A stretch of 57,474 bases of DNA, taken from contig DXBY01000153.1 in the NCBI GenBank assembly GCA_019116305.1, positions 1-57,474 of the forward strand, read 5' to 3'. The notes under the pieces were generated by a model. It saw nothing but the letters and a program-made list of their open reading frames with translations. It searched no databases and had not been told where the DNA came from. Positions 1 through 20,483 of the stretch are shown here, piece after piece. The position numbers and the translations under genes were made by a program. The stretch comes from Candidatus Ruania gallistercoris. Its GTDB lineage: Bacteria > Actinomycetota > Actinomycetes > Actinomycetales > Beutenbergiaceae. The first letter of the stretch is position 1, and each line of letters begins with the position of its first letter.

Positions 1-105
1 CCGCACCTGATCGGGTGGCCCGTTCTCGTCTTCGTGCTGATCATGTTGGCCTTCACCTGGGTAGGAGACGGATTCCGTGATGCATTCGACGTCGACGAGA
101 GCTGA
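1..105 (+). CDS. ABC transporter permease, C-terminal end only (peptide/oligopeptide type, DppC-like)
   Basis: Frame 1 reads PHLIGWPVLVFVLIMLAFTWVGDGFRDAFDVDES*; GDxxRDAxDv is the usual C-terminus of DppC/OppC permeases; directly precedes the Dpp-type ATPase. Confidence 0.8.
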   Translation, partial: PHLIGWPVLVFVLIMLAFTWVGDGFRDAFDVDES

Positions 106-1753: not shown

Positions 1754-1861
1754 GCAATCGGGCAGTGGCTGGTAGGCGATCTCGCCTGCCAGGCTGGGTG
1801 CCGGAAGAACGAGGTGCCCGGGGCAGGGCACCGCAGCACACTGACAGAGGAAGCAGAGAGC

Positions 1862-2884: not shown

Positions 2885-2885
2885 G

Positions 2886-3878
2886 ATGAAGGTCGCGATC
2901 CTTGGTGCTGCCCATCCACACGTCGCCTACGCCCTGGACGAGGTGGCCGCCCGCGCTGACCTCGAGCTGGTGGCCGTGTGCGAACCGGACCAGCAGCTGC
3001 GCAGTGCCTATCTACCCGCTGACCTCACCGCCCCGGTCTACGACACAGCGGCCGCGCTCCTGGACGCCCACGAGGTCGACGTGGCCCTGGTGGCCGGCGT
3101 CTACAGCCGCCGCGGGGAGGACACCCGGCTGGCGCTGGAGGCCGGAGCGCACGTGCTGGCCGACAAACCGCTGTGCACCAGTCTGACCGAGCTGGACCAG
3201 ATCGCCGCAGCAGCCGAACGCCACGACCGGTATGTCTCGGTGGTGTTCGAGAAGCGCGCCTATCCGCCCACGTTGGCGCTGCGCCGGCTGCTCGCCGACG
3301 GGGTGCTCGGTGAGCTGGCCCTGGTGGCCAGCACCGGGCCGCACAAGCTGAACCAGCCGAGCAGACCACCGTGGTTCCTCACTCGGGCCGGATACGGCGG
3401 GATCGCCGGAGATCTCCCGGTGCACGACATCGACCTGGTGCTGTTCCTCACCGGTGCCACCAGCGGGTCGGTCAGTGCCGTGACCGGGAACGCGCGCCGC
3501 CAGGACCACCCGGAGTTCGACGATCACGTGGCTGTGCTGCTGCAGGCGGGCAACGTGGCTGCGACGATCGAGGCGAACTGGCTCTCCCCGCAGGCCGCCG
3601 AGGTGCACGGGCACTACCGGATGCGGCTGACCGGGTCGGAGGGGACCGCCGAGCTGGACTGGGCCTACAACACGCTCACCGTGGCCACCCACGACCGGCC
3701 GACCTGGCAGGAGCCGCTCGGCGAGCCGCGTCGGCCGGCAGCCTACTTCTTCGATGCCTTGGCGGCCGGGATCGAACCCGAGATCGGTACTGCGGCCAGC
3801 CTGCTCGCCACCCGGGTGGCGCTGTTGGCCCAACGCAGCGCCGACTCCGGTGGCACCCCGGAGACGTTCGGCACCTGA
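2886..3878 (+). CDS. Gfo/Idh/MocA family oxidoreductase
   Basis: Rossmann start VAILGAAHPH, VLADKPLCT (DKP motif), GGIAGDLPVHDIDLVLFL. Confidence 0.9.
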   Translation: MKVAILGAAHPHVAYALDEVAARADLELVAVCEPDQQLRSAYLPADLTAPVYDTAAALLDAHEVDVALVAGVYSRRGEDTRLALEAGAHVLADKPLCTSLTELDQIAAAAERHDRYVSVVFEKRAYPPTLALRRLLADGVLGELALVASTGPHKLNQPSRPPWFLTRAGYGGIAGDLPVHDIDLVLFLTGATSGSVSAVTGNARRQDHPEFDDHVAVLLQAGNVAATIEANWLSPQAAEVHGHYRMRLTGSEGTAELDWAYNTLTVATHDRPTWQEPLGEPRRPAAYFFDALAAGIEPEIGTAASLLATRVALLAQRSADSGGTPETFGT

Positions 3879-4973: not shown

Positions 4974-4987
4974 TGCAACCGGATGCT
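4974..4987. promoter_or_regulatory. Degenerate LacI-type operator, putative auxiliary site
   Basis: TGCAACCGGATGCT, 5/7 paired positions; centre 46 bp upstream of the main operator at 5020-5033. Confidence 0.35.
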
Positions 4988-5015
4988 AGACGGGCCCGGC
5001 CAGTCCTGCTAAGTT
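4987..5015 (+). promoter_or_regulatory. Putative sigma70 promoter of the propeller gene at 5077
   Basis: TAGACG (4987-4992), 17-nt spacer, TAAGTT (5010-5015); same layout as promoters at 12271 and 19638. Confidence 0.5.
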
Positions 5016-5016
5016 C

Positions 5017-5036
5017 GATTGCGACCGGTTGCAATC
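5017..5036. promoter_or_regulatory. LacI-family operator (site 1)
   Basis: GATTGCGACCGGTTGCAATC, 20-nt palindrome with one mismatched pair. Confidence 0.75.
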
Positions 5037-5076
5037 TGGGGTGCGGAGAAGCACCTCAGGAACACCAGGAGGTGCA

Positions 5077-7710
5077 ATGAAGCCCGGAATGCCACGGACC
5101 GGCCGACGGCGGCTCGGCCTCACCGCTGCCGCCCTGACTGCCGCGCTCGCGCTGCTGGCCGCACCGAGCCAGGCAGCGCCCAGCGAGGCCGAAATCGCCC
5201 AGGAAGGGCCCGCCGATGCTCAGCCCAGCCAGACCCCGCTCGCCCAGGACGTGTCCGGATCGGGCAGCGCGGAGGCTGGGGACGATCCAGCGGCCGACGG
5301 CGCTACGGCACCGCCGGCGAGCGCAGTCCCGGAACCGGTGGTCCAGGACCTCGGCCCGGCGGTGATGTCGGTGAACGTGCGCTCGGCGACCTTCGGTGAG
5401 CTGGCGGACGGCACCCCGGTGGCCTACGCCGTCTCCAACGGCAACCCCGCCACCTTCACGATGGTGGACGTGGCCACTGGGGAGGCGCTGTTCAGCAGCG
5501 AGATCGAGAACACCACCCTCGGCGGCTGGATCCTGGTGGACGAGGACGGCATGGTCTACTTCACCGCCCGCCACCCGATGTCCGCCGGGCTGTTCTCGTT
5601 CGACCCGGAGACGCAGGAGCTGACCAACCTCGAGGAGCGTGTGGCCGGTGAGCTCGTGCTCTACAGCGGCAGCTGGGGTCCGGACGGGCGGATCTACTTC
5701 GGCACCTACCCGAACGCGAAGGTGGTCGCGTTCGACCCGGCCACCGGTGAGCTCCAGGACTACGGCACCCAGACCGAGGATGCGGCGTACGTCTTCTCCC
5801 TCGGCGTGGTGAACGGGGAGATCTGGGCCGGCACCGGCCCGGTACCGCACCTGTACGCGATCGACCCGGCCACCGGGGAACGCCGGGAACTGCAGCCGCC
5901 GGAGCACGTGATGGCGAACACGCAGTGGTTCATCGGCATCGACCAGCGGGCAGACACGGCGCTGATCCGGCTCTCTCCCCGGGGGAACTACGACACCGCG
6001 CTGCTCGACCTGGAGACCGGGGAGTGGTCGGAGCAGATCATCCCGTCCGTGTTCGGCTCCTCGCCGACCAATCTGGACGCCGACGGGCGCACCTACTTGT
6101 TCTCCGAGGACGTGGTGACCAGCTACGACACCACCACCGGAGAGCTGGTGCCCACCGGATGGGCCGAGACCGACCTGCCTGAACTGCTGGCCGACCAGGT
6201 AGGCACCTATGACATGGCCGTGCTCGAGCTGCCCGGCACCGAGGGAGAGACGCTAGTCGGGCTGAGCACCGACGGCGACCTGTGGACCTACCACCTGAGC
6301 AGCGGGGAGACCACGTTCACCCGGGCCGAGATCGAACCGGCACCGGCAGAGGCGCACGGCCTTGGGGTCGGGCCGGACGGTAACGCCTACATCGGCGCCT
6401 ACCTCTCCAGTGGCTCGATGACCCGGGTGGATTCCCAGTCCCTGGAGCTCACCCCGCTGCGCGGCCCGAAGCAGGCGGATGCCATCGCCACCCACGGCGA
6501 GGAGCTGATCGTGACGTCCTACCCCGGCGCCGTGGTGCACGCGGGCGATCCCGAGCAGGACTGGGAGTGGGGCACCAACCCCCGCCACGTGCTCACCCTG
6601 GAGCGGGGCGAACCACACTTCCAGGATCGGATCAACGGCGTGGTCTCGATCGGGGACCGGGTGGCGCTGGGCACAGTGCCGGACTACGGCGAGCTCGGCG
6701 GCGCTCTCACCCTGCTGGACACTGAGACCGGTGACTTCGAGTTCCATCGGAACGTGGTCCCGGACCAGAGTGTGATCTCCCTGGCCTACGCCGACGGCCT
6801 GATCTACGGCGGCACCTCGATCAACGGCGGTCTCTCCTCCGACCCGACCGCGGACTCAGCGGAGCTGTTCATCTGGGACGTGGCGGCCCAGGAGGTGCTC
6901 TACTCCGAGGCGCTCACCGATCAGGCCGGCTACCTGGCCGGACTGTCCTGGGGCGCTGATGGTCAGCTGGTCGGGGCCACCTCCGACGGGGTGCTCTTCG
7001 AGTTCGATCCCCAGGAGCGTGAAGTGACCTGGTCAGTCCGCCTGTTCGAACCGGACCAGGGCAGCCACGGTGGCTGGGGCTACTCCACCAAGACCATCTG
7101 GGACGAGCGCACCGGCACCTACCTGGTCACGCTGAACGGCAGCCTCTACCAGGTGCACCGCGACTCCGGGGAGTTTGACGTGGTGGCCGAAGAGATGGAC
7201 CAGATCACACGGGACGGCGCCGGCACCATCATCGGGGTGGACCTCACCCACGCCTACCGCATCGACATCGATGGCGAGGACGTCACCTGCGACGAGACGA
7301 TCACCGGTGACCACCGGGGCCCGCTGCGGCTGACTGAGGGTGTCACCTGTGTGGATGGTGCCACGGTGCGCGGGCCGGTGACTGTGAGTTCCGGGGCGGG
7401 GCTGGTGCTGACCGACTCCGAGGTGACCGGTCCGTTGCGGGCCGAGGGCGCCGATGTGGTGCACGTGCTGGACTCGGTGGTCAGTGGTCCGGTGCGGGTC
7501 GAGGGCACCCGGGAGGAGGTGCTGCTGCGGGGTAACACCGTGCGTGGTCCGGTGCAGCTGACGAATAGCACGACGGCGCTGGCTCCGTTGGTCAGTGACA
7601 ACCAGGTGAACGGCCCGCTGTCCTGCTCCGGCAATGATCCGGCACCGGTGAATGCCGGGCTCGCCAACGAGGTCAGCGGGCCCAGCACCGGCCAGTGCGC
7701 CGACCTCTAG
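5077..7710 (+). CDS. secreted beta-propeller-like protein with C-terminal bactofilin/beta-helix-like repeat domain
   Basis: Signal peptide (RRRLGLTAAALTAALALLAAPSQA); repeated YGSx-GG/DG-type propeller motifs; C-terminal (VxGPVxV)n repeats. Confidence 0.75.
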   Translation: MKPGMPRTGRRRLGLTAAALTAALALLAAPSQAAPSEAEIAQEGPADAQPSQTPLAQDVSGSGSAEAGDDPAADGATAPPASAVPEPVVQDLGPAVMSVNVRSATFGELADGTPVAYAVSNGNPATFTMVDVATGEALFSSEIENTTLGGWILVDEDGMVYFTARHPMSAGLFSFDPETQELTNLEERVAGELVLYSGSWGPDGRIYFGTYPNAKVVAFDPATGELQDYGTQTEDAAYVFSLGVVNGEIWAGTGPVPHLYAIDPATGERRELQPPEHVMANTQWFIGIDQRADTALIRLSPRGNYDTALLDLETGEWSEQIIPSVFGSSPTNLDADGRTYLFSEDVVTSYDTTTGELVPTGWAETDLPELLADQVGTYDMAVLELPGTEGETLVGLSTDGDLWTYHLSSGETTFTRAEIEPAPAEAHGLGVGPDGNAYIGAYLSSGSMTRVDSQSLELTPLRGPKQADAIATHGEELIVTSYPGAVVHAGDPEQDWEWGTNPRHVLTLERGEPHFQDRINGVVSIGDRVALGTVPDYGELGGALTLLDTETGDFEFHRNVVPDQSVISLAYADGLIYGGTSINGGLSSDPTADSAELFIWDVAAQEVLYSEALTDQAGYLAGLSWGADGQLVGATSDGVLFEFDPQEREVTWSVRLFEPDQGSHGGWGYSTKTIWDERTGTYLVTLNGSLYQVHRDSGEFDVVAEEMDQITRDGAGTIIGVDLTHAYRIDIDGEDVTCDETITGDHRGPLRLTEGVTCVDGATVRGPVTVSSGAGLVLTDSEVTGPLRAEGADVVHVLDSVVSGPVRVEGTREEVLLRGNTVRGPVQLTNSTTALAPLVSDNQVNGPLSCSGNDPAPVNAGLANEVSGPSTGQCADL

Positions 7711-7732
7711 CACCCAGCAGGACCACCCCCCG

Positions 7733-7766
7733 CCGGGCCGGCCTCGCATCGATCGCGCCGGCCCGG
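7733..7766. terminator. GC-rich hairpin downstream of the 5077 gene
   Basis: CCGGGCCGGC (7733-7742) / GCCGGCCCGG (7757-7766), perfect 10-bp arms. Confidence 0.45.
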
Positions 7767-7789
7767 CCGGAGTGAGCCCGAGCACCACA

Positions 7790-7832
7790 ACGACGGCGGA
7801 ACTCACCTGGCCCAGGTGAGCTCCGCCGTCGT
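7790..7832. terminator. Bidirectional terminator hairpin between convergent genes
   Basis: ACGACGGCGGAACTCACCTGG (7790-7810) / CCAGGTGAGCTCCGCCGTCGT (7812-7832), 21-nt arms with one mismatch; lies between convergent stops. Confidence 0.7.
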
Positions 7833-7838
7833 GAGCGG

Positions 7839-8714
7839 CTACTTGATCCCGGACATCATCACGCCGCGCACGAAGTAGCGCTGCAGCACGATGAACACCA
7901 GCAAGGCGGGGATGAACGTGATCACCGCACCGGCCATGATCGTGGCCAGCGGAGCCTCCTGCTCCTGCATCGAGCTCAGCCCCACGGTGAGCACATAGTT
8001 GCCCGGGGACTGCTGGGAGACCAGCGGCCAGAGGAAGTCGTTCCAGTGCCAGAGGAACACGAACGTGCCCAGCGTGGCCATGATCGGCTTGGTCTGCGGC
8101 AGGATGATCGTCCAGTAGATCCGGAACTCACCGGCGCCATCGATCCGGGCAGCATCGATCAGCTCGTCCGGGATGTCCTGGATGAACTGCCGCATCAGGA
8201 ACATCGCCTGGGCGTTGGCGATCGTCGGCAGGATCATCCCCCACATCGTGTTCAGCCCGTCCAGCTCGGAGACCACCAGGTACTGCGGGATGATCGTCAG
8301 GTGGTAGGGCAGCATCAACATGGCCACGAACACCCAGAAGATCAGCTCCCGGCCGAAGAAGCGCTTCTTCGCGAACGCGTACCCGGCCATCGAGGCGAAC
8401 AGCAGCACCAGGAACACCGAGACCACCGAATAGATGGTGGAGTTCAGCGCCCAGGTGGGGATCGAGCGGCTGCCCATCGCCTCGGCGTAGGCGCCGAAGG
8501 ACGGCGCCGTGGGCAGCAGGGAACCGGGAAGCTGGACCGCCTCGCCGGGCTGCAGGGAGAGCGCCACCATCGCGTAGAACGGGAACGCGGTGATCAGTGC
8601 TGCCACGATCAGCAGCAGGTGCAGCCGCCAGGTGCGCTTGCGGCGCGCCGGCGTGGGCCCTTTCCGTGCCGGGGCGCTGGTGGGTCGGACCGGTGCGGTC
8701 GAGGTAGCGGTCAT
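7839..8714 (-). CDS. carbohydrate ABC transporter permease (MalG-like)
   Basis: TM protein with EAA-like loop DAARIDGAGEFRIYWTIILPQTKP. Confidence 0.93.
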   Translation of the reverse strand: MTATSTAPVRPTSAPARKGPTPARRKRTWRLHLLLIVAALITAFPFYAMVALSLQPGEAVQLPGSLLPTAPSFGAYAEAMGSRSIPTWALNSTIYSVVSVFLVLLFASMAGYAFAKKRFFGRELIFWVFVAMLMLPYHLTIIPQYLVVSELDGLNTMWGMILPTIANAQAMFLMRQFIQDIPDELIDAARIDGAGEFRIYWTIILPQTKPIMATLGTFVFLWHWNDFLWPLVSQQSPGNYVLTVGLSSMQEQEAPLATIMAGAVITFIPALLVFIVLQRYFVRGVMMSGIK

Positions 8715-9625
8715 GACGTCCTCCCCACGAGGCGGCGCTGGATCAGCGAGAAGATCAGGGTGATCACCAGCAGCACCACGCCGGCCGCGCTCGCGTAGCC
8801 GAAGTCGAAGTAGCCGAAGCCCTGGTCGTAGATCATGTAGGTCAACGTGTAGCTGGCGCGCACCGGGCCGCCGGAAGTCATCACGTAGATGGTGTCGAAC
8901 ACCTGGAAGGACTTCACCGTCTCCAGCACCAGCACGAAGAACAGCGCGGGTTTGAGCAGCGGCATCGTGACATTGCGGAACCGCTGCCAGGCGTTCGCGC
9001 CGTCAAGTGCGGCTGCTTCGTAGTAGTCCGCAGGGATGGCGAGCATGCCCGCCAGCAGGATGAGCATGTTGTAGCCGAAGTTCATCCACGCGCTGACCAG
9101 CGCCAGGGAGGGCAGCACCCAGAAACTGCTCTGCAACCAGTTCACCCCGCCGATCCCCACGCCGTCCAGCACCCAGTTCAGCGGGCCGTCCGGGCTGAAG
9201 ATCCACACGAAGATCAGACCGGAGAGCACCGGGGAGGTGACCACCGGCAAGAAGAAGATCGAGCGGTAGAAGGACATCCCGCGCAGCACCCGGTTGCACA
9301 GCTGCGCCATCGCCAACGAGATCGCGACGGTGAGCGGGATCGCCACGAACGCATAGACCCCGGTGGCGCGCAGCGCATTCCAGAAGATCGGGTCGGCGAA
9401 CAGCCGCTGGAAGTTCTGCAGGCCGAGCAGCTCGAACGTGCCGTTCAGCTTGTACTCACCGAGGCTGAGCATCATCCCGTACAGGGCGGGAACGATCCGG
9501 AAGATGGTGAAGAACACCACGTACGGGCCGATGAAGACGTAGGCCACCAGAGCCGCTCGGGAAGTGAGGACTCGGCGGCGGCGCGAGGGGCGGAGCTCAG
9601 GGGCGGAGGCGGAGATGGTCGCCAC
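8711..9625 (-). CDS. sugar ABC transporter permease (MalF-like)
   Basis: EAA loop YEAAALDGANAWQRFRNVTMPLLKP; 4-nt overlap with the downstream permease. Confidence 0.93.
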   Translation of the reverse strand: MATISASAPELRPSRRRRVLTSRAALVAYVFIGPYVVFFTIFRIVPALYGMMLSLGEYKLNGTFELLGLQNFQRLFADPIFWNALRATGVYAFVAIPLTVAISLAMAQLCNRVLRGMSFYRSIFFLPVVTSPVLSGLIFVWIFSPDGPLNWVLDGVGIGGVNWLQSSFWVLPSLALVSAWMNFGYNMLILLAGMLAIPADYYEAAALDGANAWQRFRNVTMPLLKPALFFVLVLETVKSFQVFDTIYVMTSGGPVRASYTLTYMIYDQGFGYFDFGYASAAGVVLLVITLIFSLIQRRLVGRTS

Positions 9626-9709
9626 GTTGTCTACTTTCTCGACGTGATTACGGGCTCGAGGGGCGCACCCGGGGCGGACTCGCCCCAGGTGCGCCCCTCG
9701 ACGGTCTGC

Positions 9710-10966
9710 TCAGCCTCGTTCCAGCAAGGCGTTGACCTCTTGCTCAGCAGCGTCGAGCGCAGCCTGAGGATCGTTCCCGTTCACCAGGACGGACTGGATG
9801 TGCGGGCGGATGGTGTCGATGATCTGCCGTGCCTGCGGGTGCATGATCCCGACCCGGACCTGGTCGAGGTAGTCCATCCCCTGTGCAGTCTGCGGGTCAT
9901 CCTCAAACAGGTCGTCGATCGACTCCCGCGGGGGCAGGTACCCGGTGTCGGCGAGGAAGTCCCGCTGGAAGTCCTCATCGCTGAGGAAGCGCACCCACGC
10001 CCGGGCGGCCTCCGGGTTCTCCGTGGTGTTGAAGATCGACCAGGCACCCACGGAACCGCCGGCCACCTGCTCGACGTTCTGCAGCGGCGGGACCACCTCG
10101 ATGATGTCCGGGTCGACCAGCTCCCGGGTCTGGGTGAGGTTGCCGCCCATCACGTAGCCGACCTCACCCTGGCCGACGGCAGTCTGCTCGAAGGGCTCCA
10201 TCACGGTCAGCGGCTGCTGCGGGACCCACTCCTCCTGCACCATCTCCTGGATCAGCTCCAGGGCCTCCAGGCCTTCCGGGCTGTTGAACGCGGCGGCGGA
10301 CATGTCCTCGGTGAGGACCTCGCCGCCGGCCTGCCAGAGGAACATGTAGAAGGTGTGGTTCAGCGTGGAGGTACCGGAGTACTCGGTCGCGTAGTAGCCC
10401 GCGTCCACGAACTTCGGGGCCGCCTCGCGGAACTCGTCCCAGGTGGTCGGGCACTCCGCATCGGCGGCTTCCAGGGCCTCGGTGTTGCAGTAGGAGGTCA
10501 TCATCTGCATCAGCACCGGTGCGCCGTAGAGGGTGTCCTCCCACGTGTTCGCCTCCAGGGAGGAGTCGTAGAAGTCGTCCCAGTCATCGCGCAGATCGTC
10601 CAGCGGCATGAGCATCTCTTCTTCGGCCCACTGGGGGATGAAGTCCGGGTTGAAGTAGATGACATCGGGCGCGTTCTGCCCGGCCACAGCCGTGACGATC
10701 GCGTCCTCGCGGTTGCTGAACGACTGCGGGACCAGCTCGATGTTGACGTTCGGGTACTCCTCGTTGAACGCCTCGACGTGCGGCTGCCACCAGTCGGTGG
10801 TCTCGGAGACGCCGACCGGGTAGAACCAGAAGGTGACGTCGCCGGAGACGTCCTCCGGGTTCTCGGGTTCACCGCCCGACCCGTCGTCGCCTCCGCCGCA
10901 GGCGGCAACCAGCACCATCGCCGCGGCTGCCATACCGGTGACCTTGGCTACCGTTGTGCGCTTCAT
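9710..10966 (-). CDS. extracellular sugar-binding lipoprotein (family 1 SBP)
   Basis: Lipobox LVAAC, WxxHVEAFNEEYPNV and PDVIYFNPDFIPQWAEEEMLMPLDD typical of family 1 SBPs. Confidence 0.93.
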   Translation of the reverse strand: MKRTTVAKVTGMAAAAMVLVAACGGGDDGSGGEPENPEDVSGDVTFWFYPVGVSETTDWWQPHVEAFNEEYPNVNIELVPQSFSNREDAIVTAVAGQNAPDVIYFNPDFIPQWAEEEMLMPLDDLRDDWDDFYDSSLEANTWEDTLYGAPVLMQMMTSYCNTEALEAADAECPTTWDEFREAAPKFVDAGYYATEYSGTSTLNHTFYMFLWQAGGEVLTEDMSAAAFNSPEGLEALELIQEMVQEEWVPQQPLTVMEPFEQTAVGQGEVGYVMGGNLTQTRELVDPDIIEVVPPLQNVEQVAGGSVGAWSIFNTTENPEAARAWVRFLSDEDFQRDFLADTGYLPPRESIDDLFEDDPQTAQGMDYLDQVRVGIMHPQARQIIDTIRPHIQSVLVNGNDPQAALDAAEQEVNALLERG

Positions 10967-11005
10967 GCGCCCTCCCAGTCAGTCCTCGTCTTTGAACACC
11001 ACAGT

Positions 11006-11019
11006 TGCAAGCGGTTGCA
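11006..11019. promoter_or_regulatory. LacI-family operator (site 2) upstream of ABC importer operon
   Basis: TGCAAGCGGTTGCA; core identical to site 4. Confidence 0.75.
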
Positions 11020-11023
11020 GGAA

Positions 11024-11052
11024 CGCTAACGAAGCCGTCGTCTGGATGTCAA
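11024..11052 (-). promoter_or_regulatory. Putative sigma70 promoter for SBP/permease operon
   Basis: On minus strand: TTGACA (11052-11047), 17-nt spacer, TTAGCG (11029-11024), operator immediately downstream. Confidence 0.55.
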
Positions 11053-11128
11053 GACAGCGCAAGGGGCGCTGAGGTAACGTTCTGGTCTCGGCGCAGGCGG
11101 CGGCTCGCTGAGCCGCACCCCGCCGCGG

Positions 11129-11142
11129 ATGCAACCGGTGGC
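11129..11142. promoter_or_regulatory. LacI operator half-site upstream of the lacI-like gene
   Basis: ATGCAACCGGTGGC retains a full TGCAACC half; second arm degenerate. Confidence 0.3.
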
Positions 11143-11233
11143 TTCAATCGGTACCGCGTGGCGGGCCGGATGTGTCACCCTTGGATCCCGGCTGCACGGG
11201 GACTGCAGCGGGCTCCTCCGGAAGGACAGGGTG

Positions 11234-12211
11234 ATGACGCGAGCCACGATCTACTCGATCGCCGCAGAGCTCGGAATCTCGGCGTCGACGGTCTCGCGCG
11301 CGTTCTCGCGGCCCGATCTGGTGCGGGACTCGGTGCGGCAACGCATCCTCGACGCCGCGGACCAGATCGGTTATCAGCCGAGCCGGGCGGCCCGCAGCGT
11401 GGCCACCGGGCGCACCGGCCTGATCGGCCTGCTCGTGCCGGACATCACCAACCCGTTCGTCCCGCCGCTGGTGCGGGCGATCGAGATGGCGGCAGCCGAG
11501 CGGCAGGCGGGTGTGCTGCTCGTGGATGCCCGGGCGAACGGCGATGCGGAGCCGGGTCTGGTGGTCCAGCTCAAGGCGCAGGTGGATGGTCTAGTGATCG
11601 TCTCCCCGCGTTCCGGAGCCAGTGCGCTGAGCGGGGCGCTCGGTGCCACGCCCGCGGTGATCGTGAACCGCGTGATGCGCGGGATGGCCAGCGTGGTCTG
11701 CGACAACACGGCGGCGATTGGGCAGGCGGTGCAGGCGCTGGTAGCCGACGGGCACGAGCGGCTCGCCTTGTTGCGCGGCCCCGCCGATGCCTGGGCTGCC
11801 AAGCGCCGGACCGAGGCGTTCCGCCGCGCTGCGGCAGGTGCTGGGGTGGAGCTGGCCGAGCACGGGCCGTTCGAGGCTCAGTTCGAGGACGGGCGCACAG
11901 CGGCCGAGGCCGTGGCTGCCTCCGGCGCGACGGCGGTGCTCGCGTTCGACGACCTGATGGCCTCCGGGGTGATCGCGGGTCTGACCGACGCCGGGTTGCG
12001 GGTGCCGCACGATGTCAGCGTGCTCGGCTGTGACGACGTGCTCCTCGCTCGGACGATGACGCCGACGCTGAGCACGATCAGTGCCCCGATCGATGGTCTG
12101 GGCGAGCGGGCCCTGGTGTTGCTGGGCGAGGTGATGGCCGGAGGGGATGTGCGCCAGGAGCGGCTGGAGGGCACGCTGGCGTTGCGGGGGACCACGGCGG
12201 AAGCGCGCTGA
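11234..12211 (+). CDS. LacI family transcriptional regulator
   Basis: N-terminal HTH TIYSIAAELGISASTVSRAFSRPDLV, then periplasmic-binding-like sensor domain (GLLVPDITNPF). Confidence 0.95.
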   Translation: MTRATIYSIAAELGISASTVSRAFSRPDLVRDSVRQRILDAADQIGYQPSRAARSVATGRTGLIGLLVPDITNPFVPPLVRAIEMAAAERQAGVLLVDARANGDAEPGLVVQLKAQVDGLVIVSPRSGASALSGALGATPAVIVNRVMRGMASVVCDNTAAIGQAVQALVADGHERLALLRGPADAWAAKRRTEAFRRAAAGAGVELAEHGPFEAQFEDGRTAAEAVAASGATAVLAFDDLMASGVIAGLTDAGLRVPHDVSVLGCDDVLLARTMTPTLSTISAPIDGLGERALVLLGEVMAGGDVRQERLEGTLALRGTTAEAR

Positions 12212-12270
12212 GTCCGGCCGGCCCCGCGCTGTGCCGGGCTGCCGCCGAACGGGGCCGGCCAGACGCTTCG

Positions 12271-12299
12271 TTGACCGCACCGGCGGGCGCTGCTAAGTT
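12271..12299 (+). promoter_or_regulatory. Putative sigma70 promoter of the 12380-18203 operon
   Basis: TTGACC (12271-12276), 17-nt spacer, TAAGTT (12294-12299). Confidence 0.6.
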
Positions 12300-12317
12300 G
12301 TAGCAACCGGTTGCAAC
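12300..12317. promoter_or_regulatory. LacI-family operator (site 3)
   Basis: GTAGCAACCGGTTGCAAC palindrome immediately after the -10 hexamer. Confidence 0.75.
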
Positions 12318-12379
12318 GAAGCGATGTGCGTGCCGCGCTGGCCGCCTGCGTCCGGCCGGGTTGACGAACGGAGAAGCGC

Positions 12380-14887
12380 ATGGCTGCGGTGACACGAGCG
12401 GGAAGCGGCCGACGCCTGCTGGTGGCCCTCGCCGCAGTTCTTGGCATCGTCCTGGCGGCCCAGGCAGTGCCCGGCGGCGCACGGGCCGAGGCACCGGAGG
12501 ATCCCCTCGGGCCGGTGAACGGCGGCTTCGAGGAACCGGTCGGAGACGAGGGCATCCCGGGCTGGCAGAGCCGTGGCGGCGAACTCGGCAGCGCAGCCGT
12601 GGTCAGCGACCCGGTGTTCGCCGGGTCTCAGAGCCTGCGGCTGGACGACCCGGCCGACGATGCGGCCTTCGGCCTGATGAGTACGCCGATGCCGGTCCAG
12701 GCCGAGCACACCTACCGGCTGTCGATGCAGACGTACGTCGAACGTGGCACGCCCACGGTGTACGTGTACTTCTACGATGCCGAGGGCACCGAGCTCGAGG
12801 CTCGCTCCGAGCACTTCGAGGACGCACCGACCGGCCAGTGGGCGCCCGCGACCCTGGATGTGACCGTGCCCGAGGGGGCCAGCAGCGCCGCCGTCTACCT
12901 GTACTCGACCATCGGCCGGGTCTCCACCTACTACGTCGACGACGTCGGTCTCAGCCACGTTCGCGCACCGATCGAGGTCGAGGAGCTCGGAGTCGCTTTC
13001 TACAGTCCGAACGTGCGCCTTGCCGCCACGGACGTGCTGGCCGACGGCACCCGGGTCGGGTACCTGTTCTCCGACGGTCAGCCGGTCAGCCTCACCATGG
13101 TCGACCTGAGCACCGGCGAGATCCTGGACACCCACGACTTCGAGGGCTACTCGATCGGCGCCTCGATCGTGGTGGCTGACGACGACCGCGTCTACCTCAG
13201 TGTCCGCGGCCCCAACGACGGCACGTTGTGGCGTTACGACCCCGCCTCAGGAGCCCTCGACCGGCTGGCCGGCCGGATCGTCGGGGAAGCGATGCTGCGT
13301 AGTCTGGTGATCGAGGACGGGATCCTGTACGGCAGCACCTATCCGAACGCCAAGGTCTTCTCCTACGACCTGGCCACCGAGCAGGTCCGCGACTACGGCA
13401 GTGTGGTCGAGGACGGTTCCTACGCCTGGGGCTTCGACATGATCGACGGCGAGCTCTGGGTGGGCACCGGCGCCGTACCGCACCTGATGCGGCTCGACCC
13501 GGACACCGGAGAGGTCACCGAGCTCCCGCTGCCTGACGAGGTCGCTGAGAGTGCCGACTTCATCACCCGAGTGGAGCAGCTCGGTGACAAGGTGCTGGTG
13601 AGCTACTCCCCGGCAGGAAGCAGGAACACAGCGATCTACGACCTGGCCACCGAGCAGTGGCAGGACGGCATCGACAGGGTTTCCGGCCCGTGGACCTCGC
13701 CGTCAGGCGACGGCACCGTGTACTACGTCGACGGCGACACGGTCAGCGGCATCGAGCTGGAGAGCGGCGCGGAGGTCAGCATCGACTGGGCCGGCAGCGG
13801 CATCGCCGACGAACTCGATGGCACCACCGAGCTCGCCCTCCTCGACGAAGGGCTCCAGGACGCACCGGGCCCGACGCTGGTCGGCATCAGGTCCGACGGC
13901 AGCATCTGGCATTACCAGCTGGCCGTAGGTGTCGGTGACGTTCTCGAGATCGCGCTGCGCGGCGCGCCGGCGACGGTGCACTCGGTGGGCACTGGCGCCG
14001 ACGGCGACATCTACTACGGCGCCTACCTCAGCGCCGGAGTGATGGCACGGGTGGACGTGCAGAGCAGAACCCTGGAACAGATCACCGGCCCCACCCAGGC
14101 GGACAGCATCACTGCTGCGCGCGGCGGACGCACCGTGATCGCCACGTACCCGGGCGCCGAGTTCTACGCCGCCCGCAGCGACCAGCCGTGGAACTGGGGG
14201 AACAACCCGCAGCACGTGTTCAGCCTGGGGCGCGATGCGAACGGTCAGGACCGGCCGCTCTCCATGGTGGCAGCCGGTCCGTGGGTAGCCGCAGCCACCA
14301 TCCCGAACTACGGTGAGCTCGGCGGTGCCCTGACCATGTTCCACCCGGTCACCGGCCGCCACGAGGTGCACCGCAACATCGTGCCGGACCAGAGCGTGAC
14401 GGTGCTGGCCCACCGCGACCGGGTGGTCTACGGCGGCACCAGCATCTACGGCGGACTGTCGTCCACCCCGACCCAGGATGAAGCTGAGCTGTTCGCCTGG
14501 GACTACCGGCGTGATCGCCTGATCGCCAGCGAGGTGGTGGTGCCCGGGGCCGAGGTGATCCACGCCCTGGCCTTCGACGCCGACGGGGATCTGTGGGGTC
14601 TGGCGGACAACGGGGTGTTCTTCGAGTACGACGTCTCCGCCGGAGAGGTGCTGCGCACAGTGTCCACCTCGGCCACTGTGAACAACGACTGGGGCCGGCT
14701 CAGCGAGTTCTTCCTGTACCCGGACGGGACGTTCTACGGCGACGCCGGAGGACAGCTGTTCCACCTCGATCCCGAGACCGAGGAATTCACCACCCTGATC
14801 GCTGACGATGCCTACCACTCGGCGCTCGCCTCGGACGGGTCGATCTACTTCTCCGACCGGACCAGCATCTACCGCTACCAGCCATGA
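12380..14887 (+). CDS. secreted beta-propeller-like protein with N-terminal CBM4/9-like domain; paralogue of the 5077 protein
   Basis: Signal peptide; NGGFEEPVGDEGIPGWQSRGG start typical of CBM-like jelly rolls; shares YGSTYPNAKVFSYDLAT, IPNYGELGGALTMF, VPDQSV and YGGTSIYGGLSS motifs with the 5077 protein. Confidence 0.75.
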   Translation: MAAVTRAGSGRRLLVALAAVLGIVLAAQAVPGGARAEAPEDPLGPVNGGFEEPVGDEGIPGWQSRGGELGSAAVVSDPVFAGSQSLRLDDPADDAAFGLMSTPMPVQAEHTYRLSMQTYVERGTPTVYVYFYDAEGTELEARSEHFEDAPTGQWAPATLDVTVPEGASSAAVYLYSTIGRVSTYYVDDVGLSHVRAPIEVEELGVAFYSPNVRLAATDVLADGTRVGYLFSDGQPVSLTMVDLSTGEILDTHDFEGYSIGASIVVADDDRVYLSVRGPNDGTLWRYDPASGALDRLAGRIVGEAMLRSLVIEDGILYGSTYPNAKVFSYDLATEQVRDYGSVVEDGSYAWGFDMIDGELWVGTGAVPHLMRLDPDTGEVTELPLPDEVAESADFITRVEQLGDKVLVSYSPAGSRNTAIYDLATEQWQDGIDRVSGPWTSPSGDGTVYYVDGDTVSGIELESGAEVSIDWAGSGIADELDGTTELALLDEGLQDAPGPTLVGIRSDGSIWHYQLAVGVGDVLEIALRGAPATVHSVGTGADGDIYYGAYLSAGVMARVDVQSRTLEQITGPTQADSITAARGGRTVIATYPGAEFYAARSDQPWNWGNNPQHVFSLGRDANGQDRPLSMVAAGPWVAAATIPNYGELGGALTMFHPVTGRHEVHRNIVPDQSVTVLAHRDRVVYGGTSIYGGLSSTPTQDEAELFAWDYRRDRLIASEVVVPGAEVIHALAFDADGDLWGLADNGVFFEYDVSAGEVLRTVSTSATVNNDWGRLSEFFLYPDGTFYGDAGGQLFHLDPETEEFTTLIADDAYHSALASDGSIYFSDRTSIYRYQP

Positions 14888-15906
14888 CAGAAAAGGAGCA
14901 GGCCACGGTGACCCACCCGCGCGCCTTCGTCGCCATCCGCCCGGAGGAATTTGACCGGCTCTTCGACGCGGCCACCGCCGCGGAGCTCGAGCGCCTGACG
15001 AGTCTCGACCGTGCGGTCGGTGCCGGCAAGGTCGAGCTGCCGGAGGACGTCGCCGACCGCTACGACGTGCTGATCACCTCCTGGAGCACCCAGCGCTTCC
15101 CGCCTGAGCAGCTCCAGGGAGACCGGCTCCAGCTGGCTGTGCACGCGGCCGGCTCGGTGCGCGGCCTGTTCTCCCGGGACTCCCTCGGCGGCCGCCTCCG
15201 GCTCGCCCAGGGCGGAGCGGATGCGATGGCAGTGGCGGTCGCCGAGCTGTCCGTGACCTTGGCACTGGTGCTACTGCGTAACGTGCACACCCACGACCGT
15301 GGCCTGCAGACCACCCGGGACTGGGTCGCCGGCGGGCGGGGGATGCTCGGGCGGTCCGTGCACGAGCAGCGGGTGGGCATCGTGGGCCTGTCCCGAGTGG
15401 GCCGCTCCGCCGCCCGGATGATGGCCGGACTGGGCGTGACGCGAATGAGCGCCTACGACCCCTACGCCGCACCGGAGAGCGCCCCCGGGATCGCACTGGT
15501 CGACCTCGACGAGCTCTGCCGCACCAGCGACGTGCTGCTCGTCTGCGCACCGGTCACCGCCGAGACACGCGGCCTGCTCGGCGCCGAGCAGTTCGCCGCC
15601 CTGCCCGACGGTGCGGTGCTGATCAACGCCGGCCGGTCGGCGGTCACTGACGAAGCCGCCCTGGTCCAGGAGCTGCTCACCGGGCGGATCAGCGCCGGCC
15701 TGGACGTGTTCGACACCGAACCGCTGCCTACCGACAGCCCGCTCTTCGGCCGGGACAACGTGGTGCTCACCCCGCACGTGGCCGGGGGCACCACCTGGTC
15801 GCGACACGAGCAGGGACGCGTCGTCGTCGCCGAGGTGGGCAGGTTCCTACGGGGCGAGCGGCTGGCCCATGAGGTGACCACGGCGAACTACGACCAGCTC
15901 GCCTGA
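14884..15906 (+). CDS. D-isomer-specific 2-hydroxyacid dehydrogenase family protein
   Basis: GIVGLSRVGRSAARMM NAD-binding motif, LINAGRSAVTDEAAL, GLDVFDTEPLP, LTPHVAG; ATGA overlap with preceding gene. Confidence 0.92.
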   Translation: MTEKEQATVTHPRAFVAIRPEEFDRLFDAATAAELERLTSLDRAVGAGKVELPEDVADRYDVLITSWSTQRFPPEQLQGDRLQLAVHAAGSVRGLFSRDSLGGRLRLAQGGADAMAVAVAELSVTLALVLLRNVHTHDRGLQTTRDWVAGGRGMLGRSVHEQRVGIVGLSRVGRSAARMMAGLGVTRMSAYDPYAAPESAPGIALVDLDELCRTSDVLLVCAPVTAETRGLLGAEQFAALPDGAVLINAGRSAVTDEAALVQELLTGRISAGLDVFDTEPLPTDSPLFGRDNVVLTPHVAGGTTWSRHEQGRVVVAEVGRFLRGERLAHEVTTANYDQLA

Positions 15907-15921
15907 CCGGTCCGGTGATGT

Positions 15922-17259
15922 ATGCGTAAGTCTGATGTCCAGGTGCTCAGCGCCGCGGCGTCCTTCCGCCCGATCCGGCTGGACCAACCGCTCTCGATCA
16001 GCGGCCGGGAGATCTCCTCGTTCAGCATGGCCGTGGTCGAGGTCCGCGTGGTCGATCGCACCGGCACCCCTGGCCGCGGCCTGGGCACGACCATGCTCTC
16101 GGTGCCATGGGCCTGGCCGGTGGCCGACATCGGCCTGGACGAACGAGACCGCGCGCTGCGTGAGCTCACCGAGGAGCTGGCCGACGCCCTCGTGCAGACC
16201 GGGCCTGGCGACCCGATCACGCTCTGGCGGGGGCTCTACTCCGGGCTGGACGAGCGGCTCGGCAGGTTGGCCGAGCGATACCGGGTGCCGCACATCCCGC
16301 GGCTGGCTGGACTGCTCGCCCTGGGTGCGGTGGACAGTGCCGTGCACGATGCGTGGGCCGCTGCCGCCGGTCGCCCGGCGAGCACGATGTATGACGCCGC
16401 GCACCTGACCGACGACCTCGGCTGGCTCGACCCCGCACTCGCCGGCCACTATCCGGGTGACTTCCTCACCACGCCACGGCGGCGGCTACCGGTCCAGCAC
16501 GTGGTGGGTGTGAGTGACCCGCTCACCGTGGCCGAGGCCGACGACGGCGGACGTGCGTTGACCGAGTGGCTGCGCACCGAGGGGGTGCGCTCGCTGAAGG
16601 TCAAGCTGAGTGGGCAGCGCCCGGAGCAGGATGCCCGCCGGGTGGTGGACATCACCAGGCTCGCCCAGGCCGAGGTGGGCCCGGTGGAGGTGGCACTGGA
16701 CCCGAACGAGGGCTGCGCAGGCGCGGAGGACGTGCTCCGGCTCCTCGAGGAGATCGAGCGGATCGCACCCGAGGTGATGCCGGCGCTGCAGTACCTGGAG
16801 CAGCCGGTCCCGCGGGACGCACCGGCCGAACCGGCGGCGATGACGCGTCTGGGTAAGCGGCTGCCGGTGCTGCTGGACGAAGGTTTCGCCGACCTGTCCT
16901 TGCTGCCCCGGCTGCGCGAGCTGGGCTGGTCCGGTGTGGTGGTCAAGGCTGCCAAGGGGCACAGCCTCGCGCTGCTCACCCATGCCTACGCCCGGGCCCA
17001 CGGGCTCTGGGTGGTGGTCCAGGACCTGACGGCGGTCTCCTGGGCGCTGGTGCACTCGGCGCGGCTGGTGAGCACCTTCGACCTGTCATCGGTGCACCTG
17101 GAGTACAACAGCCGGCAGTACGCCCCGGGCGCGGCCCGCGAGCTGCTGGCCGACCTTCCCGAGCTCATCCGGGTCCGCGGCGGGCGGGTGCAGCTACCCG
17201 CACCTGCAGCCAGTGGCCTCTACGAGCTGGCGTCCAGCACAGCAGAGGAGACCGAATGA
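15922..17259 (+). CDS. enolase superfamily (mandelate racemase/muconate lactonizing-like) protein
   Basis: KVKLSG, VALDPNEGC, YLEQPVP, LLDEGF and VVKAAKG motifs. Confidence 0.8.
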   Translation: MRKSDVQVLSAAASFRPIRLDQPLSISGREISSFSMAVVEVRVVDRTGTPGRGLGTTMLSVPWAWPVADIGLDERDRALRELTEELADALVQTGPGDPITLWRGLYSGLDERLGRLAERYRVPHIPRLAGLLALGAVDSAVHDAWAAAAGRPASTMYDAAHLTDDLGWLDPALAGHYPGDFLTTPRRRLPVQHVVGVSDPLTVAEADDGGRALTEWLRTEGVRSLKVKLSGQRPEQDARRVVDITRLAQAEVGPVEVALDPNEGCAGAEDVLRLLEEIERIAPEVMPALQYLEQPVPRDAPAEPAAMTRLGKRLPVLLDEGFADLSLLPRLRELGWSGVVVKAAKGHSLALLTHAYARAHGLWVVVQDLTAVSWALVHSARLVSTFDLSSVHLEYNSRQYAPGAARELLADLPELIRVRGGRVQLPAPAASGLYELASSTAEETE

Positions 17260-18203
17260 CCAGCGACGCTCGCAGCGTCCGGGTGCAGTGGTGGCGCGAC
17301 TGGCTCGGTGCCGAACGGGACCCGCGCGGCACCTGGTCCCTGCACCCACGCCCGGACAATCCGGAAGGCTGGCAGGACGCCGACCTCGTGCTGCACTCCT
17401 ACGGCACCGACCTCGGGGCCCGCCTGCTGCGCCCCGTCCCGACGGGGCGGCAACAGCGCAGCCCAGTGGTGATCGTGCCGTTCTACGAGACCGCCACCCT
17501 CGTGGGTGAACCCTGCCTGCGCACTGCGCAGCGGCCACCGGACCGGCCCACCCAGGCCTACGCCGTCGAGCTGGCCCGCCGAGGTGTGGCGGCCCTGGCC
17601 GTGCCCTGGTGGTTCGAGCAGATGGCGGCCGGCTCGCCCGCCCGCAACCTCGCCGAGCGCTACGGTCCACCTGCAGCGGCCCACGCCGCCGCTCAGGACC
17701 GGACCGCACTGGGCCGCAGCATCGCCGACCTGTTCCTGGCCGTGGACGCGCTGCTGGACCAGGACTGGGTGGACCCGGAGCGGATCGGGGTACACGGGCA
17801 CTCCCTGGGCGGCAAGCTCGCGCTGCACCTGGCCGCGCTGGACGATCGGGTGGCGGCCGGCGTCGCCCATGAACCGGGTCTGGGTCTGCAGCACTCGAAC
17901 TGGGACGCTCCCTGGTACCTGGGCACGCACCTGCCCGAGGAGGTCGACCACGACGAACTGCTCGGCCTGGTGGCGCCGCGCCCGTTCCTGATCGGCGCTG
18001 GGGGTGACTCCGACGGCGAGCACAACGCCGACCTTGTCCGCCGCGCCGCTGACTGGTGGCCCGCCGGTCAGGGACCCCAGGTGCTCCGGCACGAGCACGG
18101 GCACCCGCTGACCGAGGAGGTGCTCTCGCGCACGATCAGCTGGCTGGCCGAGGCACTCCAGCGGCCGGATGCGTCTCGGCCCCCAGCTCCACCAGCTGCA
18201 TGA
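17256..18203 (+). CDS. alpha/beta hydrolase (dienelactone hydrolase/acetyl xylan esterase-like)
   Basis: GVHGHSLGGKLALHLAALD nucleophile-elbow; ATGA overlap with preceding gene. Confidence 0.75.
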   Translation: MTSDARSVRVQWWRDWLGAERDPRGTWSLHPRPDNPEGWQDADLVLHSYGTDLGARLLRPVPTGRQQRSPVVIVPFYETATLVGEPCLRTAQRPPDRPTQAYAVELARRGVAALAVPWWFEQMAAGSPARNLAERYGPPAAAHAAAQDRTALGRSIADLFLAVDALLDQDWVDPERIGVHGHSLGGKLALHLAALDDRVAAGVAHEPGLGLQHSNWDAPWYLGTHLPEEVDHDELLGLVAPRPFLIGAGGDSDGEHNADLVRRAADWWPAGQGPQVLRHEHGHPLTEEVLSRTISWLAEALQRPDASRPPAPPAA

Positions 18204-19410
18204 GGTTGCGGGCGATGTGGAACGGGTCCTTCACCGGAAGGGCCACCACCTCGTCCTTCGGCTGCCCGCTGCGGTCCCGGATCTGGATCCACTCCCGGCC
18301 CTGGTCCCCGCCCGGGAAGGTGCTCAGGGTGTACTCCCAGATCCGGTCGAACCACGGCGCGGCCGCCGGCTGACCATAGCGCCGGGCGGCGATCGCCGTG
18401 GTGGCGCAGGCCTCCGAGTGCACCCACCACAGCTTGGTGTCCCAGGTAGCCAGCACGCCCTCGGTGTAGGGCGCTTGCTCGGCGGTGCCGGCCGGCCGGA
18501 CGGGGCCGGCGGCATCGGTGTAGCGCAGGAGTCCGCCGTGCTCGCGGTCCCAGCCGAGTTCGCACAGCGCGGGCACGCTGTCCAGGGCCTGTCGTCGGTG
18601 GGCGTCGGTGCCGAGCAGCTCACCGGCGGCCAGCACCATCCAGATCGCTTCGATGGCGTGCCCAGGAACGCGGTGCCGCTCGACCACGGTCTCGGTGCCC
18701 GCGTCCGGGGCACCGCCGGCCCGAGGCATCTCCACGAACGTCCCGTCCGCAGCGCGGAAGGACATCACGTGCTCGATCTCCGTGGCCAGAGCGGCCCGGG
18801 TGGTGGTGCCGTCCAGGTCCAGCGACCCCTCGGCCTGGGCGAGGACCAGCAGGGCGTTCAGGGCGATCATGTGCGGCCCGAGCGCGTCCCGCCCGGCCGG
18901 GATCTGATAGGGCGGGGTGGGACCGGTGCCGGCGTGGATGTCGGCCAGCGCTCGCTCCAGCACGCTGCGCGCCGGGACCAGCACGGCCGGGTCCGCCGTG
19001 CGTGCCGCCAGGCCCGCCAGGCCCATCACCGCGAACAGGTCGGCGTACACGCTCCGGTCCGGGACGGTGGGGTCGACCACCGGTGAGCCATCCCGCTGCA
19101 CCGCGAAGCGGCAGGTGCCGTCGGTGCGTACGGCGTGGTCGGTGAGGAACTGGCCGCCCCGCTCCGCCCAGCCGGTGAGCAGCTCGGGGTCGGCGGAGAG
19201 CAGCCCCTGCTCGGCCAGGGTGGCGGCGTGGCTGAGCAGCCAGACGAATCGCCCCTGGGACCAGGTGAACTTGGTCTCCGCCGTTCGGGTCCGACCACGG
19301 TTGTCGAAGCAGGTGTGAAACCCGCCGAGCTCGTGGTCGATCCCGTTCTCGTACCAGAACGGCAGGATGACCTGCTCCAGCTCGGTACGGGCGCGTTTCG
19401 CGAACCCCAT
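18136..19410 (-). CDS. AGE family epimerase/isomerase (N-acylglucosamine 2-epimerase-like)
   Basis: FWYENGIDHELGGFHTCFDNRGR, KFTWSQGRFVWLLS, RVPGHAIEAIWM, KLWWVHSEA motifs. Confidence 0.9.
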   Translation of the reverse strand: MGFAKRARTELEQVILPFWYENGIDHELGGFHTCFDNRGRTRTAETKFTWSQGRFVWLLSHAATLAEQGLLSADPELLTGWAERGGQFLTDHAVRTDGTCRFAVQRDGSPVVDPTVPDRSVYADLFAVMGLAGLAARTADPAVLVPARSVLERALADIHAGTGPTPPYQIPAGRDALGPHMIALNALLVLAQAEGSLDLDGTTTRAALATEIEHVMSFRAADGTFVEMPRAGGAPDAGTETVVERHRVPGHAIEAIWMVLAAGELLGTDAHRRQALDSVPALCELGWDREHGGLLRYTDAAGPVRPAGTAEQAPYTEGVLATWDTKLWWVHSEACATTAIAARRYGQPAAAPWFDRIWEYTLSTFPGGDQGREWIQIRDRSGQPKDEVVALPVKDPFHIARNLMQLVELGAETHPAAGVPRPAS

Positions 19411-19479
19411 CCAGCCTCCTCGCCTCGGTGTTCAGCGTCGTCGGTTCCCCGCCGATCCTAAGCGAGCCGACCCGATCCG

Positions 19480-19493
19480 TGCAAGCGGTTGCA
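19480..19493. promoter_or_regulatory. LacI-family operator (site 4) upstream of AGE epimerase gene
   Basis: TGCAAGCGGTTGCA, identical to site 2 core. Confidence 0.7.
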
Positions 19494-19637
19494 GGGGTGG
19501 TCACGGTGGCGCATTGTCGCGACGTCAGGGGAGGGGTGGCCTGCTTTTCGGCGCGCTGCTGCGGATCGCCGGTCGCTGCCAGACGCCTCGCCGGGGGAGT
19601 GGTCCCGTCTGCTGTCGGCGGGATCTTCGTCAGGGTG

Positions 19638-19666
19638 TTGACCCGGCACGGTCCGCTCGCTACAGT
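19638..19666 (+). promoter_or_regulatory. Putative sigma70 promoter of nagB-like gene
   Basis: TTGACC (19638-19643), 17-nt spacer, TACAGT (19661-19666). Confidence 0.6.
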
Positions 19667-19670
19667 CATC

Positions 19671-19684
19671 TGCAACCGATTGCA
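19671..19684. promoter_or_regulatory. LacI-family operator (site 5)
   Basis: TGCAACCGATTGCA between the promoter and the nagB-like start codon. Confidence 0.7.
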
Positions 19685-19697
19685 ATGGAGAGTGAGA

Positions 19698-20483
19698 ATG
19701 GTCCTGACGGAGTCTGATGTGCACCCGCCCACGGTCCGCATCGGTGCGACCGTGGCCGAGGCTGCCGAGGCCGCCGCCGAACGGGCCGCAGCGGGGATCC
19801 TGGCTGCCCTGGCTGCACGAGGCTCGGCCCGAGTGCTGTTCGCCAGCGCGCCCTCCCAGGAGGCGATGCTCGCCCGGCTCGGCGCTGATTCGCGGATCGA
19901 TTGGTCGCTGGTGCACTCCTTCCACCTGGACGAGTACGTCGGCCTGCCGGCCAGCGCCCCGCAGTCCTTCGGGCAGTGGCTGCAGGACCGGCTTCCGGCC
20001 GCGGCACTGCCCGGATTCGTTCGGATGCATGCCGAGGACGAGGCCGGAGTGATAGCCGAGATCGAGCGGTACAGCACCCTCATCGGGGAGGCACCGGTCG
20101 ACGTCACCTGCCTGGGGATCGGGGTGAACGGGCATATCGCCTTCAACGAGCCCGGGGTGTCCGACCTGGACGACCGGGATCGTGCCCGGCAGGTGGACCT
20201 GGACCTGGCCTCCCGCCAGCAGCAGGTGGACGAGGGGCTGTTCCCGACCCTGGCCGACGTGCCGACCTCGGCGATCACCCTCACCGTGCCGGCGGTGACC
20301 GGAGCCCGGATGCTGGTCTGCACTGTGCTCGGGTCGCACAAGGCCCAAGCAGTCGCCGGAGCGCTGGAGGGACCGATCGGTGCCGACTGCCCGGGCAGCC
20401 TGATGCAGGCACACCCGGAGGCGTACTGGTTCCTGGACGAGGCTGCCGCCGGGCAGCTGCGGCGGCAGCACCCCGGCCGCTGA
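19698..20483 (+). CDS. glucosamine-6-phosphate deaminase/isomerase family protein
   Basis: FHLDEYVGL, LGIGVNGHIAFNEPG motifs of NagB-type enzymes. Confidence 0.88.
   Translation: MVLTESDVHPPTVRIGATVAEAAEAAAERAAAGILAALAARGSARVLFASAPSQEAMLARLGADSRIDWSLVHSFHLDEYVGLPASAPQSFGQWLQDRLPAAALPGFVRMHAEDEAGVIAEIERYSTLIGEAPVDVTCLGIGVNGHIAFNEPGVSDLDDRDRARQVDLDLASRQQQVDEGLFPTLADVPTSAITLTVPAVTGARMLVCTVLGSHKAQAVAGALEGPIGADCPGSLMQAHPEAYWFLDEAAAGQLRRQHPGR

Follow-up and report, generated by a model that had tools for sequence, protein, structure and literature searches.

Local regulons of the LacI family have been described as built on an even, CG-centred palindrome which is intergenic and lies mostly 30-140 bp before gene starts (PMC4052901). 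The stretch analysed here, a window of 57,474 nucleotides from Candidatus Ruania gallistercoris (Beutenbergiaceae; contig DXBY01000153.1), resembles these in encoding a regulator with an HTH and a periplasmic-binding-protein domain, in the CG centre of its putative operator and in having sugar transport and catabolism targets with the sites at their promoters. It differs in that the operators are distributed over several distant loci and in that the targets include propeller proteins and, in relatives, DUF4127 proteins. With the actinobacterial nan clusters (PMC8754123) it shares AGE/NagA/NagB chemistry and ABC import; however, Ruania has no clustered nanA/nanK/nanE, its regulator is of the LacI and not the FadR type, and it possesses tandem propellers and several Gfo/Idh proteins. 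The latter are related to the Gfo/Idh enzymes of glycoside cleavage by oxidation and elimination such as DgpA and glucuronide-3-dehydrogenase (PMC10628242, PMC7676230). Literature searches brought up no orthologous regulon. The regulator and its CG-centred motif are thus of the ordinary LacI type; the system stands out by how broad its conserved set of targets is and by the unstudied proteins within that set.

It is highly probable, from the comparative sequence data, that a dispersed regulon under a single LacI repressor (11234-12211) has its core in the window; the set would serve the uptake and breakdown of a glycan that contains amino sugars. The window genes attributed to it and the putative operators, the latter being even palindromes with a central CG (consensus TGCAANCGNTTGCA), are as follows:

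77-1753, plus strand: OppDF-type ATPase (family match)
1862-2884 and 2886-3878, plus strand: two Gfo/Idh/MocA oxidoreductases (family matches)
4974-4987, plus strand: weaker auxiliary operator TGCAACCGGATGCT, two mismatches, 46 bp upstream of the 5020 operator
5020-5033, plus strand: main operator TGCGACCGGTTGCA before propeller 1; predicted -10 TAAGTT at 5010-5015 and -35 TAGACG at 4987-4992
5077-7710, plus strand: secreted propeller 1 with a C-terminal Gly-Pro-repeat domain
7839-8714, minus strand: ABC sugar permease 2 (PF00528)
8711-9625, minus strand: ABC sugar permease 1 (PF00528)
9710-10966, minus strand: sugar-binding lipoprotein (SBP_bac_1, family match)
11006-11019, unstranded: operator TGCAAGCGGTTGCA before the minus-strand SBP-permease operon; predicted -10 at 11023-11028 and -35 TTGACA at 11047-11052
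11130-11143, plus strand: weak operator-like site TGCAACCGGTGGCT, two mismatches, some 90 bp before the start of LacI
11234-12211, plus strand: LacI-family repressor of 325 aa, probable regulator (PF00356 HTH and Peripla_BP_3)
12302-12315, plus strand: operator AGCAACCGGTTGCA before the propeller 2 operon; predicted -35 TTGACC at 12271-12276 and -10 TAAGTT at 12294-12299
12380-14887, plus strand: secreted propeller 2, a CBM_4_9-like domain and a tandem propeller
14884-15906, plus strand: D-2-hydroxyacid dehydrogenase (PF02826)
15922-17259, plus strand: enolase-superfamily protein (PF13378; match to the C-terminal domain only)
17256-18203, plus strand: alpha/beta hydrolase, glucuronyl/acetyl esterase-like (family match)
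18136-19410, minus strand: AGE-family N-acylglucosamine 2-epimerase (PF07221; best solved relative 1fp3)
19480-19493, unstranded: operator TGCAAGCGGTTGCA before the minus-strand AGE gene, its TTGCA half at the -35 position; predicted -10 TAGGAT at 19455-19460
19671-19684, plus strand: operator TGCAACCGATTGCA before the nagB-like gene; predicted -35 TTGACC at 19638-19643 and -10 TACAGT at 19661-19666
19698-20483, plus strand: NagB-like glucosamine-6-phosphate deaminase (PF01182; best solved relatives 2ri0 and 2ri1)

A search for a solved relative of the enolase-superfamily protein found none. The sequence-only reading had placed five matching cores (at 5020, 11006, 12302, 19480 and 19671) upstream of propeller 1, the SBP operon, the propeller 2 operon, the AGE gene and the nagB-like gene. 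A sequence check found all five exactly at these positions, intergenic and 14-107 bp before the starts, these distances and starts being approximate as the gene calls came from a codon-usage script. If up to two mismatches are tolerated, 16 strand-matches at 8 places occur in the window; shuffled sequences gave an expectation of 0.87, and none of the shuffles attained 16. The match at 9285-9298 lies inside the permease gene, is probably due to chance and was set aside as an operator. In a closely related Ruania genome (G021) the four operators compared are all identical to those of the window's genome (G000) over 14 of 14 positions, whereas the intergenic DNA around them is 57-79% identical; the four include the sites of propeller 1 (remaining intergenic DNA 79%), of the SBP operon and of AGE (remaining intergenic DNA 57%). 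The auxiliary site at 4974 is kept in two other Ruania, G021 (46 bp) and R. albidiflava G016 (45 bp), while the first 12 bases of the weak 11130 site are conserved in G021.

The LacI protein scores over the cut-off with PF00356 (37 bits) and PF13377 (96 bits), and RbsR, CcpA and PurR are among its solved relatives. With regard to autoregulation in the window's genome, the good site is that on the SBP side, and the 11130 site nearer to the gene is the weak one. In four relatives (G015, G017, G018, G019) the LacI gene follows DUF4127 and hydrolase genes downstream of an operator, and in G010 an operator lies directly before it. G010, Occultella gossypii, has two LacI orthologues in one cluster (G010:C13:23039-24004 and 33664-34641, with 59% and 61% identity to that of the window).

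Pattern searches, with reversed controls for background, covered the draft assembly from which the window comes (4.37 Mb in 357 contigs). Only ten places were found at up to one mismatch; half of them lie in the window and the other five on four further contigs. These outlying sites lie before an oligopeptide-type binding protein (C4:618-631), before a Gfo/Idh pair (C52:2711), before a second sugar ABC operon and in the intergene of a glucuronyl-esterase-like and a nagB-like gene (C236:13638 and C236:18355), and before a nagB-nagA pair (C180:12449). The two-mismatch scan proposed earlier proved too loose, giving 40 motif against 76 reversed-control forward matches; since the control outnumbered the motif, matches of this class were not counted as signal. 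The OppDF-Gfo-Gfo genes at the window's left end (77-3878) have no operator of their own. In G021 a single stretch runs Gfo-Gfo, operator, propellers, operators, SBP5-OppB-OppC-OppDF-Gfo-Gfo and then roughly the order of the window. By synteny with this, contigs C52 and C4 are probably the immediate left-hand neighbours of the window in its genome as well, and the G021 gene order (906326-913934) makes genes 77-3878 the probable end of an operon controlled from C4:618-631. The regulon is larger than first claimed, with at least ten sites and four more loci and, to judge by G021, also the OppDF-Gfo-Gfo genes.

Sites of this kind could also represent a general catabolite-repression element like that of CcpA, or be common to several LacI paralogues, the motif being of the general LacI-family type (PMC4052901) and the genome having about 41 LacI genes. 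This is considered very unlikely. Rather than occurring at similar density in random intergenic regions, or before many unrelated carbon operons genome-wide as with CcpA, the ten places all adjoin one functional set of related genes, namely paralogous propellers, NagB-like proteins, Gfo/Idh oxidoreductases and ABC transporters, and no glycolytic or unrelated sugar operon was found beside them. None of the LacI genes is on the four outlying operator contigs.

Across relatives, the sites follow the LacI orthologue rather than the propellers. Orthologues (at least 57% identity) are present in 10 of 24 family genomes, with identities of 57-90% (90% in G021), the next best match being 43%; in an order-wide sample of 297 genomes, matches at E <= 1e-75 were found only in the same ten. 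Their recognition helix is conserved (IS-A/G-STVSRAF and close variants) and differs from that of the readable paralogues. The ten genomes have 7, 9, 5, 9, 5, 6, 9, 2, 9 and 2 exact TGCAANCGNTTGCA sites (total 63), against 0 or 1 in each of the fourteen without an orthologue (total 5; Mann-Whitney p = 1.3e-5, uncorrected for shared ancestry, the genomes sharing descent and the counts not being independent). In the family regions analysed, all 79 sites with no more than one mismatch fall between genes, although intergenic DNA makes up only 12% of these regions. Two orthologue-bearing genomes without propellers (G008 and G011) have two sites each, before NagB-like and Gfo genes; conversely, G009 has three propellers but neither the orthologue nor a site.

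Orthologue and sites also occur together outside the family, in genomes reached via propeller homologues in public genomes. Seven of these, with an orthologue of 52-62% identity, have 2-10 exact sites each, mostly before the same gene families: Georgenia subflava (LacI 62%, 10 sites), Jiangella muralis (59%, 5), a Brachybacterium MAG (57%, 2), two Microbacterium MAGs (55%, 4; 53%, 5), Phytoactinopolyspora (54%, 9) and an Avipropionibacterium MAG (52%, 2). Nonomuraea (51%), Jiangella anatolica and other propeller-bearing actinobacteria with a more distant LacI have none or one. Bacillus niameyensis has no LacI match, yet has two exact sites.

The isolated exact sites in genomes without the orthologue are the remaining point in favour of a shared paralogue element. 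There are five such family genomes with one site each, in two of which (G001 and G012) the site adjoins a different LacI gene. The motif is thus not wholly private to the orthologue, and LacI paralogues of 42-46% identity may bind related sequences. Against this, Ruania G020 and Occultella G009 have other LacI genes and no site at all. Furthermore, positions 6 and 9 of the exact family sites are never A and T (0 of 62 with A6/T9), whereas genomes lacking the orthologue show this form at several of their sites.

The single-regulon explanation is supported further by its targets. Gene maps of 20 family and 10 outside regions show the same families behind operators despite reshuffled gene order, these being propellers, NagB-like, NagA, AGE, Gfo/Idh groups, 2-hydroxyacid dehydrogenase, alpha/beta hydrolase, sugar ABC and Opp transporters, DUF4127 and DHDPS-like/SDR pairs. 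The same association is seen again in Georgenia, Microbacterium, Phytoactinopolyspora, Jiangella and Brachybacterium. As the target families co-occur and were probably transferred together, the palindromes might be conserved as mere passengers of co-moving gene cassettes with no single present-day regulator, but we regard this as exceedingly improbable: from one species to the next the genes change their order and their divergent pairings, yet each unit keeps an operator in front of it, and there are sites without propellers (G008, G011) as well as propellers without sites (G009, Nonomuraea, Jiangella anatolica). The earlier proposal of one LacI regulon is hence strongly supported by the ten-site scan, by the tracking of the orthologue across the 24 family genomes and outside, and by the retention of targets despite rearrangement.

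DUF4127 (L120:16086-17567) is a recurrent regulon member in G015, G017, G018, G019, Georgenia, Jiangella and Microbacterium; it was not found in the regulon loci of the window's genome. The C236-type locus of G021 includes a gene call of 2363 aa (L103:11936-19027; G021:C2:3936936-3944027) in which an alkaline phosphatase domain is combined with a calcineurin-like phosphoesterase domain; it sits among sugar ABC genes and is absent from the corresponding place in G000. In some Ruania, a further likeness to the oxidation-elimination systems is a DUF1961 protein that weakly matches 3-keto-disaccharide hydrolases.

Predicted sigma-70 elements fall into three fixed registers around the operator (108 contexts). 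In register A (TTGAC/TANNNT), the -10 ends a few bases before the operator (39 of 108, against 16.8 with shuffled flanks); in register B, the operator fills the 17-bp spacer (16 against 4.4); and in register C, the TTGCA half of the operator is at the -35 position (21 against 9.6). Within the window, propeller 1, SBP, propeller 2 and nagB belong to register A and AGE to register C, and orthologous promoters in different species have the exact register in common. Repression is the natural reading since all three registers would exclude RNA polymerase, and we infer from these positions repression by polymerase block rather than activation. Operators are often paired about 47-60 bp apart (Georgenia L194-L196; up to 124 bp in G017, L112), an arrangement which might allow cooperative binding or looping. 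The registers would offer a usable repressor-promoter pair for these actinobacteria.

In the proposed mechanism, the ligand-free LacI dimer would bind the palindromes over the promoters and block RNA polymerase, and would come off on binding a sugar, which probably derives from degradation of the target glycan. Release would switch on together the propellers, ABC importers, esterases, Gfo/Idh enzymes, hydroxyacid dehydrogenase, enolase-like protein and AGE/NagB, with the AGE/NagB (elsewhere NagA) route feeding N-acetyl-hexosamine units to fructose-6-phosphate. The import and catabolism assigned to the locus by the sequence-only reading fit the gene families of the targets. NagB-like, AGE and NagA proteins, together with NanE and mannonate-type ManD/SDR genes beside the regulon in Jiangella, point to N-acetyl-hexosamine units, perhaps with uronic acid, as substrate.

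The set might also be a variant sialic-acid (nan) system under the same LacI, a rival on substrate and not on regulation, as AGE, NagA and NagB are accompanied by a DHDPS-like protein in relatives and by NanE in Jiangella, and some Gfo/Idh proteins are described as acting on 2,7-anhydro-sialic acid (PMC7535918, PMC7315737). It is nevertheless unlikely. There is no nanA/K/E cluster, the genome's only NanE match is on C101 with no operator there at up to one mismatch, and no sialidase match was found in the regulon genes scanned. The DHDPS-like protein has weak family matches alone and was not found in the regulon loci of the window's genome. In actinomycetes, nan clusters almost invariably go with a regulator of the FadR type (PMC8754123), whereas the regulator here is a LacI. 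For teichuronic acid or ManNAcA as substrate, ideas which were set aside, no supporting paper was found.

None of the regulon genes in the window matched a family profile of glycoside hydrolases or of lyases, and the secreted tandem propellers occupy the place of a recognised glycoside hydrolase. The solved relatives of the regulon Gfo/Idh proteins (a Jiangella member was tested) include DgpA and glucuronide-3-dehydrogenase, making an oxidation-elimination route possible; the closest, 3q2i/3q2k, are annotated merely as dehydrogenase/oxidoreductase, and no eliminase was identified in the regulon set of the window's genome. A bolder reading, which we consider less likely than not, is an undescribed system for a glycan with N-acetyl-hexosamine, possibly also with uronic acid, whose bonds would be cut by the propellers, which would then form a new family of lyases or hydrolases, and/or by Gfo/Idh 3-oxidation and elimination in the cell.

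Four close members of the propeller family are present in the genome, two in the window and one each on C4 and C52, and there are several homologues in each related species. Their only Pfam matches are DUF6923, CBM_4_9 and PQQ-like; they have no NCBIfam match and no solved relative by sequence, and neither sequence nor fold matched a CAZyme family (glycoside hydrolase, polysaccharide lyase). Literature searches on DUF4127 and DUF6923 found nothing. The AlphaFold model of propeller 2 is a tandem propeller with pLDDT 93.6 from an alignment of 35 relatives (46 for a single sequence), and a fold search of the PDB and viral proteins returned generic double propellers alone (TM <= 0.41 among the best 50). 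The propellers may bind or cleave a glycan at the surface, and the regulon may serve one glycan, as the sequence-only reading proposed. A well-bounded regulon ties these secreted proteins, and DUF4127 in relatives, to amino-sugar catabolism, and the LacI ligand could reveal the substrate and then the propeller activity.

Paired propellers also occur in halophilic Bacillaceae (Thalassobacillus, Virgibacillus, Sediminibacillus; L132-L135) beside an SBP-permease set, mostly with Gfo/Idh and without the motif; these loci are the same module under other control. The C-terminal 130 or so residues of propeller 1 and the end of the C52 propeller form a Cys-containing Gly-Pro-repeat domain with two further matches on contig C275.
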